Below are positions 46,991 through 51,667 of a stretch of DNA of 64,000 nt, piece after piece (the first letter of the stretch is position 1; every line of letters begins with the position of its first letter). Position numbers and translations under genes: made by a program. The notes under the pieces were generated by a model. It made no database searches. It was given only the letters and a program-made list of their open reading frames with translations, and had not been told where the DNA came from. The DNA comes from Pseudomonas sp. MH9.2 (GTDB lineage Bacteria > Pseudomonadota > Gammaproteobacteria > Pseudomonadales > Pseudomonadaceae): contig NZ_CP133784.1 of assembly GCF_034353875.1 (NCBI RefSeq), positions 1,736,001-1,800,000 of the forward strand. The letters are read 5' to 3'.

Positions 46991-47169
46991 CAGTTTGGTG
47001 GCCGAAGGCTACCAATCGAGTCAAGGAACCGCCTACCCTGCAACACCTCCCCGTTTTATAGTTCCCTAACTAGCTGAATATCAATGCATTTAATTAAATG
47101 AACTGTTTGGCACGACTTTCGCTCTAAAACACCAGCTAAGACTGCGTTATGTGTTTTAGGAGTAAAAAC

Positions 47170-48096
47170 ATGAATTCTTCTACCCAGACCAACGCAATCG
47201 ACTTCGACAGCGCTAAATTGCAACGACTGGGATTTGGCCAACAACACAACGCCGCCCAGCGGCCTGTCGATTTGGCACAATTGCGCCATCAGCTTGGCCT
47301 GCAATTACAAACCAGCCTTGAACCGGAAAGAATCCTGACGATTTTTTTTCGCGGCATTCAGCGCATGATCCCGCTCATGGCACTGAGTTACGAACACCGC
47401 GCCAGCGACCTGCACCTTAAAGTGGGTGAGCGTGGGCACCATCGTGTCAGTTACAGTTTGAGCAATGAAGGCGAACACCTGGGCGAACTGGTCTTTCAGC
47501 GTAACCAGCGTTTTTCCGAACGCGAATTGGCCCAGTTTGAATCTTTGCTGCCTTGCCTGTTATTCCCTCTGCGAAACGCCCTGCTCTATCGCGAGGCGAC
47601 ACTGAGTGCCCTGCGCGATCCGTTGACCTGTACCGGCAACCGAATCGCCATGGATCAAACCCTGTCTCGGGAAATCGAAGTCGCCCACCGTCATAAACAC
47701 CCGCTGTCCTTGCTGATGCTCGATATCGACCACTTCAAGCGGGTCAATGACGATTACGGCCATAGCACGGGCGATGAAGTGCTCAAAGCCGTCGCAAACT
47801 CAATCAAGGCCCAACTGCGCAATATCGATATGGTGTTTCGTTTTGGGGGTGAGGAGTTCTTGATCGTGCTCTCGAACACCGGGCGCGAAGCCGCTGCAAT
47901 GGTCGGCGAGCGCCTGCGTCTGGCGGCGACCCATCTGACCTATCCAATGCTGGATCACCCGATTGAACTGAGCGTCAGCCTGGGGTGCGCCACGCTGTTG
48001 CCGGCCGAGTCGGCCGAAAGTATTCTGCGCCGCGCAGACAGCGCGCTGTACGTAGCCAAGCGTCAGGGGCGCAACCGTCTGGCGATGGCGGGCTAA
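47170..48096 (+). CDS. Diguanylate cyclase with GGEEF domain
   Basis: 308 residues. The N-terminal 130 residues are soluble and of no recognised family (perhaps GAF-like, with TSLEPERILTIFFRGIQRMI). The C-terminal GGDEF domain (about 145-305) has DPLTCTGNRIAMDQTL, LLMLDIDHFKRVNDDYGHST and the active site FRFGGEEFLIVL. An inhibitory I-site RNID precedes it at the correct 5-residue spacing, so product inhibition is expected. It makes cyclic di-GMP in the cytoplasm. The start at 47170 has AGGAG upstream. It converges on undA. Confidence 0.93.
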   Translation: MNSSTQTNAIDFDSAKLQRLGFGQQHNAAQRPVDLAQLRHQLGLQLQTSLEPERILTIFFRGIQRMIPLMALSYEHRASDLHLKVGERGHHRVSYSLSNEGEHLGELVFQRNQRFSERELAQFESLLPCLLFPLRNALLYREATLSALRDPLTCTGNRIAMDQTLSREIEVAHRHKHPLSLLMLDIDHFKRVNDDYGHSTGDEVLKAVANSIKAQLRNIDMVFRFGGEEFLIVLSNTGREAAAMVGERLRLAATHLTYPMLDHPIELSVSLGCATLLPAESAESILRRADSALYVAKRQGRNRLAMAG

Positions 48097-48131
48097 GCTC
48101 GATTAACTCGTTTGCCAAGCCTGCCCGTCAC

Positions 48132-48917
48132 TCAGTTTTCAACCAGCATCATGTGTTCACGCGACTGCGTCGCCTGCTCCAGCTGCATGCAGCGTTCCAG
48201 AAACAGGTACATGTAGTCGTAACTCTTGGTGACTGCCTGACGCAGCTCAGTCTGCAATTGGATACTGGGGTTGTTACCGGCCAGCGTGCAGATAATTTCC
48301 AATGCTTCCCAAGGATGCGAGTCGTCATATTGAGCGTGCATTTTCAGCCATTTCATGGCGCGCTTACGCTGATCTTCCGGGAAAGCGTCGGCATACACCC
48401 CGTTTGAGCAGACAAGTGCCGACCATTCACCGGTGGCGCCTTCAATGGCATAGTTAGTCGCCGCAATAGCGACGATCAGCGAGTCAGACGAACTGGAATG
48501 CCAACACCAATGGCTCAGAGCATGCAATTCAGGTGGAACTTGCTGGGCCTGCAACTCTTCAAGGCTGACCCCGTGGGCCAGGCTCCAGTTCACCCAATAA
48601 TCAGCATGATTGAGTTCGACGCGAATATTGCGCATTAACCAACGACGCGCCATGTCCTCACCCGGATGACGGGCGAAGCGGGTTTTTGTCAGGTTCTGCG
48701 CCATGTACAGGGCGAACTGTTCAACCACCGGCCAGCCACCGATCAAGTACTGCCGCATGGTTTTCGAACTCAGGCGGCCATCGCGCATCCGCTGATATAA
48801 CTCATGCCCTACCACTCGGCGCTTGGCTTCACTGCACTCTTGAATCAACTGCTGTGCCCACGCCGGATAACTGGTTGCTTCCATGAGCGGACCAGTTCTG
48901 CAGAAAGTATCGATCAC
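48132..48917 (-). CDS. undA: UndA: non-heme iron oxidase making 1-undecene from lauric acid
   Basis: 261 residues, heme-oxygenase-like (HDO/TenA-like) fold. The sequence closely follows the UndA of P. protegens Pf-5 as I recall it: TFCRTGPLMEATSYPAW, RMRDGRLSSKTMRQYLIGGW, NLTKTRFARHPGEDMARRWL, NYAIEGATGEWSALVCSNG. Iron ligands fall at the published positions: Glu101 and His104 (ELNHADYW), Glu159 (AIEGATGEW), and His194, Asp198 and His201 (HAQYDDSH). The GTG start at 48917 is chosen because AAAGGAGG lies 8 nt upstream and it gives the known length; an ATG at 48947 lies within the ribosome-site region. UndA oxidatively decarboxylates medium-chain fatty acids to volatile terminal alkenes. Often annotated only as a TenA family protein. 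Confidence 0.92.
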   Translation of the reverse strand: MIDTFCRTGPLMEATSYPAWAQQLIQECSEAKRRVVGHELYQRMRDGRLSSKTMRQYLIGGWPVVEQFALYMAQNLTKTRFARHPGEDMARRWLMRNIRVELNHADYWVNWSLAHGVSLEELQAQQVPPELHALSHWCWHSSSSDSLIVAIAATNYAIEGATGEWSALVCSNGVYADAFPEDQRKRAMKWLKMHAQYDDSHPWEALEIICTLAGNNPSIQLQTELRQAVTKSYDYMYLFLERCMQLEQATQSREHMMLVEN

Positions 48918-48968
48918 TGTTTTGGCCTCCTTTTTTTGTGGTGTCATTGTTCGGTCGCGCACTGCGTT

Positions 48969-51434
48969 TTAGCGGAATGCTCCTGGCACCCTGAACAACA
49001 AAGGTGCTGGGCGAACCGGCCGGGAATACAGACTTTCACACGTAAACACTTGCGGGCGCTGGATGATATAGCCCTGCGCGAAATCGACGCCGATCTCTAG
49101 CAGTGCCTGTTCAATCTGCGGCGTTTCGACAAACTCGGCAATGGTCCGTTTGCCCATCACATGCCCGATATGGTTGATCACTTCAACCATCGCGCGATTG
49201 ACAGGATCATCCAGCATGTCCTTTACAAAACTGCCATCGATCTTCAAAAAGTCTACTGGCAGATGTTTGAGGTAGGCGAACGACGACATCCCCGCACAAA
49301 AGTCATCCAGCGAGAACAGACATCCCAAGCCTTTTAGCTCATTAATAAAGCGGATGGCACTGCCCAGGTTTGAAATGGCACTGATCTCCGTGATCTCAAA
49401 ACAAATCAGGTCGGGCGGTATTTGGTACGTATCGAATTGCTCTTTCAGGTACGCCAGAAAAGCATCATCGCCAATACTGGTCCCCGACAGGTTGATCGCG
49501 CATATCGCCATCGGCCCGCTGTGCTTTGCCTCGCGCAGGCATTGCGCGATGACCTTGAATACGTTCTGCACCACCCAGCGATCCAGCGTGGTCATCAGGC
49601 CATAGCGCTCGGCAGCCGGAATAAAGCTGTCCGGCAGAATCATCTGACCTGTTTCATCGCGTAGTCGCAGGAGAATTTCGATGTGCCCTCCCGCATGTTC
49701 ACCGACATTCCCCAAGTCGGCGATTTCCTGGGAATACAGGCAGAAACGATTCTCTTCGAGGGCCATGTGCAGCCGCTGCACCCAGGCCATTTCGCCGAAA
49801 CGCATGGACAGCTCAGAGTCGTCTGCGTGGTAGACCTGCACTCGGTTGCGGCCCTTCTCTTTGGCCATATAGCACGCCATGTCGGCCGTACGCAGTGAGG
49901 CCTCGAGGGTAGTCGGCACATGGGTAATGTGCACCAACCCAATACTGATGGTGGTGACGAAAGGCCGACCCTTCCAGACAAAATGCAGGCTTTGCACGGT
50001 TTGGCGCAAGCTTTCAGCAATGATTTCGGCTGTTTCCTGCGGGCAGTTCTCCAGAAGGATGCCGAACTCATCACCGCCCAGTCGCGCCAGGGTGTCGCCT
50101 TCGCGCAAGCCCTGTTGCAGCAAGGTACAAATGTGCCGTAGCAACTCATCCCCCGCAGCGTGACCACTGGTGTCATTGACCAGCTTGAATTGGTCAAGAT
50201 CGAGAAACAACAGCGAATGGCGACCGGCATGACGCGCCAGATTACTGAGCGTCTGCTCCAGTCGATATTCAAACTCGCGCCGGTTGGCCAGCCCGGTCAA
50301 TGCATCGTGGGTCGCCTGCCAGGACAGATTGGCGATGTATTGCTGCTCTTGGGTCATGTCATGCAGAACCAGCACGGCACCGCTGACTTTGCCGCCGGAC
50401 TGGATCGGCGACCCCACCAGCGCTACTGACACCGTGGAGCCGTCCAGACGCTGAATAGACTGCGAATGTTCGCTGGCGCTACTCAGCTTGCCGCCCAGGA
50501 TGTGTTCTATCAGGGTGAAACTGTCTTTCTGGTCGTTCTCATCCAGCAGATTGAACAGCGCAGCCAGCGGCAAACCACTGGCCTGCTCGCTCTTCCAATG
50601 GGTCAGGTGCTCGGCTGCCGGGTTCATGTAAGTGATCGAGCCCTCGACATCGGTGGTGATCACCCCGTCGCCTATGGACTCCAGCGTGATTTGCGCCCGC
50701 TCTTTTTCCAATTGCAGCGCACTGGCGAAAGCGTGCCGCTGTGTCAGCAATTTATGCGTGCGCAGCAGGGCCAGAAGAATCAGCACCACCGCCGTTGCCA
50801 GGTTGGTGATCAGCAACAGGCGCAGAATGAACCGCGAACCCTCCCCCAGCGCATCGCTGAAGGCTTTGGCTGCGGGAGTCACACCCTCATTGATCGCATT
50901 GATCTGAGACTTCCAGCCACGCACATCATCGTTGGTCGCACTGCCCTGGCTGATACGGGTGTGCATCTGCCGGGCAACGGCATCGAGTTGTACCAGGTAG
51001 CCGTCACCGACTTTCCACAACTCAATGGCTTTTTCCATGTAGCTGAAATGACGAAAGTTCAAATACAGCCAGATGATACTCGGGACGTCATCCGGGTGGT
51101 TTCCACCTTGCAGAATACCGAGACGAGCTGCTCCGATCTCAGGGATCGGTCCGTCGAGCGCGATCCGTAGATCATGACTACCCTGCGGAATGGCAATGGC
51201 TTGCTGGTACTTCTGATAGTGCTGCTCATCCCGACTGTTGGCATACAGGTTGAGGTAGTAAATGGCATCCTTTTGCCCTTTGGACCACATGCTCTCGCCG
51301 GCGACATACCCGCGAACGGCAGACAGCACATACAAGCTCACGCACCCCAGAAGCGTCTGGAACAGCACGACCGCTATAAATGGCCAAACAATGCCCAGCA
51401 AACGGGGCCTCTCCAGAATCCGCTTTTTCTTCAT
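48969..51434 (-). CDS. Membrane PAS-GGDEF-EAL cyclic di-GMP protein
   Basis: 821 residues. Two membrane segments (about 13-40 and 205-228) bracket a roughly 165-residue periplasmic sensor of unrecognised type. Then come a PAS domain (ITLESIGDGVITTDVEGSIT), a GGDEF domain with LARLGGDEFGILL and I-site REGD, and a C-terminal EAL domain. The EAL domain keeps Glu (HIEILLRLRD, EIL instead of EAL), INLSGT, FEITEIS, DDFCAGMSSF (usually DDFGTG), KIDGSF and VETPQ, so phosphodiesterase activity is possible but altered. The start at 51434 (MKKKRILERP) has AAGGG upstream. Likely dual or regulated cyclic di-GMP turnover at the inner membrane. Confidence 0.92.
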   Translation of the reverse strand: MKKKRILERPRLLGIVWPFIAVVLFQTLLGCVSLYVLSAVRGYVAGESMWSKGQKDAIYYLNLYANSRDEQHYQKYQQAIAIPQGSHDLRIALDGPIPEIGAARLGILQGGNHPDDVPSIIWLYLNFRHFSYMEKAIELWKVGDGYLVQLDAVARQMHTRISQGSATNDDVRGWKSQINAINEGVTPAAKAFSDALGEGSRFILRLLLITNLATAVVLILLALLRTHKLLTQRHAFASALQLEKERAQITLESIGDGVITTDVEGSITYMNPAAEHLTHWKSEQASGLPLAALFNLLDENDQKDSFTLIEHILGGKLSSASEHSQSIQRLDGSTVSVALVGSPIQSGGKVSGAVLVLHDMTQEQQYIANLSWQATHDALTGLANRREFEYRLEQTLSNLARHAGRHSLLFLDLDQFKLVNDTSGHAAGDELLRHICTLLQQGLREGDTLARLGGDEFGILLENCPQETAEIIAESLRQTVQSLHFVWKGRPFVTTISIGLVHITHVPTTLEASLRTADMACYMAKEKGRNRVQVYHADDSELSMRFGEMAWVQRLHMALEENRFCLYSQEIADLGNVGEHAGGHIEILLRLRDETGQMILPDSFIPAAERYGLMTTLDRWVVQNVFKVIAQCLREAKHSGPMAICAINLSGTSIGDDAFLAYLKEQFDTYQIPPDLICFEITEISAISNLGSAIRFINELKGLGCLFSLDDFCAGMSSFAYLKHLPVDFLKIDGSFVKDMLDDPVNRAMVEVINHIGHVMGKRTIAEFVETPQIEQALLEIGVDFAQGYIIQRPQVFTCESLYSRPVRPAPLLFRVPGAFR

Positions 51435-51667
51435 GGTTTCCCTTACATGAGCGTTTCTGATACTCACCCTGCAGCTTGAGTGATAGTCCTGGAAAGAGCC
51501 TAGGCTAAAACCGGACAAGACGGCAGACCATTTTCTCAAGTTTGAGACGCAATACCGCCCGGTGGCGCCCTTTCGTTGGCAGTCTATATAGAAGATAGAG
51601 GATGTATAAGAAATTCGTAGCGCTACGATTTATTTATAACCGGGTCTTCAGCAAGACCGTTTGGTTA

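Follow-up and report, generated by a model that had tools for sequence, protein, structure and literature searches.

The closest described system is UndA of Pseudomonas, which, together with its product, was reportedly described by Rui et al. in 2014. The enzyme is regarded as a heme-oxygenase-like diiron oxidase (HDO), in which Glu101, His104, Glu159, His194, Asp198, and His201 would hold two ferrous ions and the carboxylate of lauric acid would bind one of the irons; O2 would then give rise to a peroxo-diferric intermediate, and oxidation of dodecanoic (lauric) acid, a common fatty acid, would yield CO2 and the volatile hydrocarbon 1-undecene. The excerpted text of a 2026 review covers this diiron mechanism, assigns UndA a 3H/3C diiron ligand set, and names Trp190 (PMC13108848). 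As reported in extracts of the published studies, UndA orthologues use O2 and Fe(II) to produce 1-alkenes from C10–C14 free fatty acids, 1-undecene is abolished by deletion of undA in P. fluorescens MFE01 and lost in an undA transposon mutant of P. aeruginosa PA14, and expression of P. putida KT2440 undA in Acinetobacter baylyi raises 1-undecene 93-fold.

UndB is likewise described, in the same kind of extract, as forming 1-undecene from lauric acid, but unlike UndA it is membrane-bound and desaturase-like. CADD has the 3H/3C ligand motif in common with UndA according to the excerpted review (PMC13108848), whereas CADD/4-aminobenzoate synthase (CT610, PDB code 1RCW; 8VA9) matches the window protein at just ∼17 bits in sequence and differs in chemistry. 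Extracts of two further papers describe effects of 1-undecene on Legionella growth and biofilm maturation (PMC10614000) and on worm behavior (PMC8246062).

Gene Structure

The window (the whole stretch of 64,000 nucleotides analyzed from Pseudomonas sp. MH9.2) contains, on its minus strand from 48917 to 48132, a single open frame of 261 codons followed by TGA. This gene is almost certainly undA, the orthologue of P. protegens undA, intact and full-length and making a 1-undecene synthase. The initial annotation had named no strand, and on the plus strand the frame given by 48132–48917 has internal stops. The features of the locus are as follows.

48132..48917, minus strand: undA, 261 aa, with GTG at 48917 and the TGA stop at 48134–48132; identified from the open frame, the PDB match, and the alignment
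48918..48968, minus strand: intergenic stretch of 51 nt from the rbdA stop to the undA GTG, weakly structured, with the ribosome site AAAAAAAGGAGG
48969..51539, minus strand: rbdA-type gene (PAS-GGDEF-EAL), directly upstream of undA, its stop 51 nt from the GTG
47149..48096, plus strand: GGDEF-domain gene, convergent with undA across a 35-nt gap; a neighbor outside the claimed function

Comparison with UndA Structures and Other HDO Families

A search of the PDB matched the protein to 4WWJ (with 4WWZ and 4WX0) at 516 bits and to 6P5Q, named "UndA," at 515 bits, both alignments covering residues 1–260 of 261 with E about 1e-154. These P. protegens/fluorescens UndA entries, of which the P. protegens ones presumably come from strain Pf-5, are like the window protein in their length of 261 aa and in the numbering of the ligands and Trp190. 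The remaining UndA-type sequence, 3OQL, which we take to be a P. syringae DC3000 protein, matched residues 1–256 at 482 bits and is known as a TenA homolog by name alone. By computation, 223/261 residues (85%) are identical in the P. protegens 14B2 protein (L064). L064 is nearly identical to 4WWJ and 6P5Q, with six positions differing from 4WWJ when counted by eye, and the window protein itself shares ∼221/260 residues with 4WWJ by the same kind of count. Identity to other relatives is 250/258 for Pseudomonas sp. UMAB-08 (L001), 194/257 for a P. aeruginosa record (P0068), and 156/257 for P. knackmussii (P0117). The initial annotation had described a match to UndA along the whole length, which these alignments bear out.

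It is extremely improbable that the protein is a generic TenA-like or other HDO (of the thiaminase II, PqqC, or CADD/4-aminobenzoate synthase type) with no alkene synthase activity. Such an assignment could appeal to Pfam, where the matches are to broad families alone, Haem_oxygenas_2 and TENA_THI-4 (PF14518 and PF03070), the latter limited to residues 32–155 at 38 bits. It could appeal also to the names of relatives in database records, which include "TenA family transcriptional regulator," "pyrroloquinoline quinone biosynthesis protein C," and "iron-containing redox enzyme family protein"; the initial annotation's remark that automatic annotation speaks of a TenA-like regulator holds for these records. 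The vagueness of the automatic names probably arises because the Pfam families are broad and CADD falls far under its cut-off, the sole NCBIfam match being to the CADD subfamily TIGR04305 at 40.8 bits against a cut-off of 200. Weighing against a generic HDO, the best PDB match beyond the three UndA-type sequences is an antibody chain at 17.7 bits (E = 0.014), and CT610 (17.7 bits, E = 0.015) and 4-aminobenzoate synthase (17.2 bits, E = 0.02) score ∼30-fold below UndA. No chain named for thiaminase or PqqC occurs among the 10 PDB matches at E ≤ 1, and the "TenA homolog" 3OQL is itself UndA-like. The initial annotation had proposed that identity no better than that of generic TenA/HDO proteins would count against UndA; with UndA-type chains at 482–516 bits and the best other HDO chains at 17.7 and 17.2, the claim survives that comparison.

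Two classes were rejected: the metal-independent TenA/PqqC class, given the partial 38-bit Pfam match, the absence of such a chain from these PDB matches, and the presence of all the diiron ligands; and the CADD/4-aminobenzoate synthase class, given that the TIGR04305 cut-off was missed. Identification as undA provides a reliable functional name for a gene often recorded as a TenA regulator or a PQQ protein.

Active Site and Sequence Conservation

Residues 101, 104, 159, 194, 198, and 201 of the window protein are Glu, His, Glu, His, Asp, and His, and residue 190 is Trp, so that the protein has the 3-His/3-carboxylate set and Trp190. The individual ligand numbers are those of the initial annotation, all six of whose iron ligands are present, and Trp190 and the 3H/3C set were taken from the review (PMC13108848). 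Conservation was assessed in 200 relatives (the best 120 of 1230 proteins and the best 80 of 432 loci, the query being kept apart). Glu101 and Glu159 are found in 200 of these 200, His104 in 199 with a single Gln exception, and Trp190, His194, Asp198, and His201 in all 199 that have the column. This near-invariance of the UndA ligands and Trp190 is a further argument against a generic HDO. The only residues of the window protein that are rare in the same set (≤3% of the column) are Cys6, Ile219, and Met257.

The 38 differences from L064 over 261 positions are distributed as 10 in residues 1–53, none in 54–108, 11 in 109–206, and 17 in 207–261, with none at the ligands and none at Trp190. Given 85% identity to a solved structure, an altered hydrophobic channel for the C10–C14 acid substrates appears unlikely. 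Pairwise comparison gave dN 0.017, dS 0.287, and dN/dS 0.058 with L001; 0.072, 2.32, and 0.031 with L002; 0.083, 1.92, and 0.043 with L031; and 0.098, 1.49, and 0.066 with L064, the larger dS values being near saturation and rough. Change at the protein level in undA is strongly held back by purifying selection, with dN/dS of ∼0.03 to 0.07. A pseudogene was rejected, the frame being open and dN/dS well below 1. Orthology, ligand conservation, integrity of the gene, and purifying selection are thereby demonstrated for the window undA.

Start Codon and Leader

The ribosome site AAAAAAAGGAGG ends 8 nt before the GTG at 48917. Every one of the 80 titled relatives (the best 80 of 432 loci), P. protegens L064 included, has GTG at the aligned start position, and when the window is added to these 80, 81/81 sequences carry AGGAG or AAGGA in the 20 nt preceding the GTG. 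The titled loci, being the best 80 of 432, are close relatives (84–97% identity) and include at least three MAGs; loci L081–L119, which may overlap titled loci and in part represent pieces of the same broken genes, were excluded from the counts out of 80. The minus-strand frame, the GTG, and the conserved site agree with the 261-residue protein and GTG start with a ribosome site put forward in the initial annotation.

An in-frame ATG 10 codons upstream of the GTG could extend the protein to 271 aa with a lysine-rich N-terminal tail. From this in-frame ATG the frame stays open in both the window and L001, but an ATG occupies that place in just these 2 of the 81 sequences (window and best 80 of 432 loci), and it is the GTG that the conserved ribosome site precedes. 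In six of the 81 the distance of an in-frame ATG from the GTG is different, and the remaining 73 have none. A start at the upstream ATG is very improbable, and the GTG at 48917 is the likelier start of undA. The idea of a structured regulatory leader was examined and rejected: when the 111 nt around the undA start were shuffled 200 times, 198 of the shuffled sequences folded at least as stably (z = +1.97), and the region is consequently not structured but unusually open.

Gene Neighborhood and the rbdA-type Gene

In the window, as in every one of the 80 titled Pseudomonas loci (best 80 of 432), undA is immediately preceded by the rbdA-type gene, whose frame is broken into several pieces in L073. 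Proximity to rbdA, a biofilm regulator gene, is customary for undA without strictly defining it. The label "rbdA-type" derives from the domains, the position, and PMC10614000 rather than from an RbdA reference sequence, and the excerpted text of that 2023 paper attributes the undA-rbdA association to Rui et al. 2014 (PMC10614000). As listed, the open frame begins with TTG at 51539; the match in relatives begins at about residue 26–33, and for this reason translation probably begins at the ATG at 51434 instead.

Downstream, the convergent GGDEF gene is present in 71 of the 80 titled loci (best 80 of 432), and among the nine without it L041 ends 71 nt past undA. As a side observation, both immediate neighbors of undA encode c-di-GMP domains, the rbdA-type gene upstream and the convergent GGDEF gene downstream. 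Farther on, an SDR gene is found in 74/80, a HAD gene in 72/80, and a ubiG-like gene in 72/80 of the same best 80 of 432 loci, some of which end earlier; the ubiG-like identity of this last neighbor is our assumption.

Distribution and Co-occurrence with rbdA

A match to undA at E ≤ 1e-5 was obtained in 326 of 398 Pseudomonas genomes, that of the window included, and none in the other 72. Because so many genomes carry a match, the finding of undA here is ordinary; the gene is already known, and nothing in the window departs from the published picture. In a few genomes the gene is interrupted: it is split by ∼2.6 kb in G353, is broken in G358 into three pieces that overlap and differ in frame, and is spread over two contigs in G206. 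The broken copies of G353 and G358 (L113, L117, L114, L116, and L119) lie near an rbdA-type gene. G189 has two undA copies of equal score (L111 and L115), one on contig C1 and one on C6, each adjacent to an rbdA-type gene; this may be a duplication or an assembly overlap.

Co-occurrence was compared in samples that are not random, namely 20 hand-picked undA-positive genomes, mostly with more distant undA, and the 20 listed of the 72 without undA. A near full-length rbdA-type match was present in 20/20 of the former (71–96% identity) and in 5/20 of the latter (54–68% identity, one with a stop inside), where 14/20 have rbdA-type matches at ≤42% only. Two of the undA-positive genomes, G023 and G045, have one stop inside the rbdA-type matched stretch. 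In the remaining genome of the 20 without an undA match, G108, the rbdA-type gene is divided into two pieces (70% and 81% identity), possibly a case of joint decay. Genes of rbdA type do occur without undA, and the co-occurrence may merely follow phylogeny. The conserved linkage, together with the tendency toward a diverged, missing, or broken rbdA in genomes lacking undA, allows for the two genes forming one functional unit, in which the RbdA-type c-di-GMP enzyme would sense 1-undecene or its lauric acid precursor. Such a unit is quite doubtful; were it real, 1-undecene would tune biofilm maturation through a protein encoded beside its synthase.

Transcription, Regulation, and Predicted Emission

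A scan for sigma-70-like promoters, that promoter type only, found none on either strand of 47900–49400 (shuffle mean 0.6), and no terminator was found in the same interval (shuffle mean 1.3); between rbdA and undA there is neither a terminator-like nor a sigma-70-like site. Since no such promoter was found, undA transcription is assumed to come via rbdA, and the arrangement fits a single transcript shared by the two genes.

According to extracts of the respective studies, mutation of gacS eliminates 1-undecene in MFE01, and in SBW25 it lowers 1-undecene, with undA 9.7-fold down; possible Rsm sites at undA are mentioned in the MFE01 extract, and the absence of a Gac box upstream of undA in that for SBW25. 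The MH9.2 genome encodes three CsrA/Rsm-type proteins, which fits the published GacS control, and by analogy with those strains GacS/Rsm control of undA in MH9.2 appears plausible. Of 81 sequences (window and best 80 of 432 loci), 80, the window among them, have just one A(N)GGA in the 60-nt undA leader; that of the window is the ribosome site itself, and it consequently lends little independent support to direct Rsm control.

The chemistry, substrate, and product of the window UndA are carried over from the published orthologues, and on that analogy it is a sound prediction that MH9.2 would emit 1-undecene. The identification thus leads directly to an expectation of the compound in the headspace of the strain. 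It is unlikely, if not strikingly so, that the orthologue is intact but silent, or has drifted to another fatty acid substrate, with little or no 1-undecene emitted. The GacS dependence of emission in extracts of the MFE01 and SBW25 work, the lack of a recognized sigma-70-like site near undA (47900–49400), and the broken copies in a few other genomes would all accord with this, and its silent half is compatible with the gene being an intact undA orthologue. Opposed to it are the intact frame with dN/dS well below 1 and a conserved ribosome site, and the restriction of rare residues to Cys6, Ile219, and Met257 (best 120 of 1230 proteins and best 80 of 432 loci).

Other PF14518 Proteins in the Genome

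The window undA is the sole match in its genome at E ≤ 0.01, and two other PF14518 proteins are distinct from it; the possibility that it is one of several close copies was rejected on these grounds. Both of the others lie outside the window. The first (L125, G000:C1:3310461–3310895) has a 267-residue frame with PF14518 at 36.2 bits and is without the ExxH and HxxxDxxH motifs. The second (L123, G000:C1:42658–43164) spans 230 residues from stop to stop with PF14518 at 104.8 bits and has both motifs, and it is likely a second diiron HDO protein.
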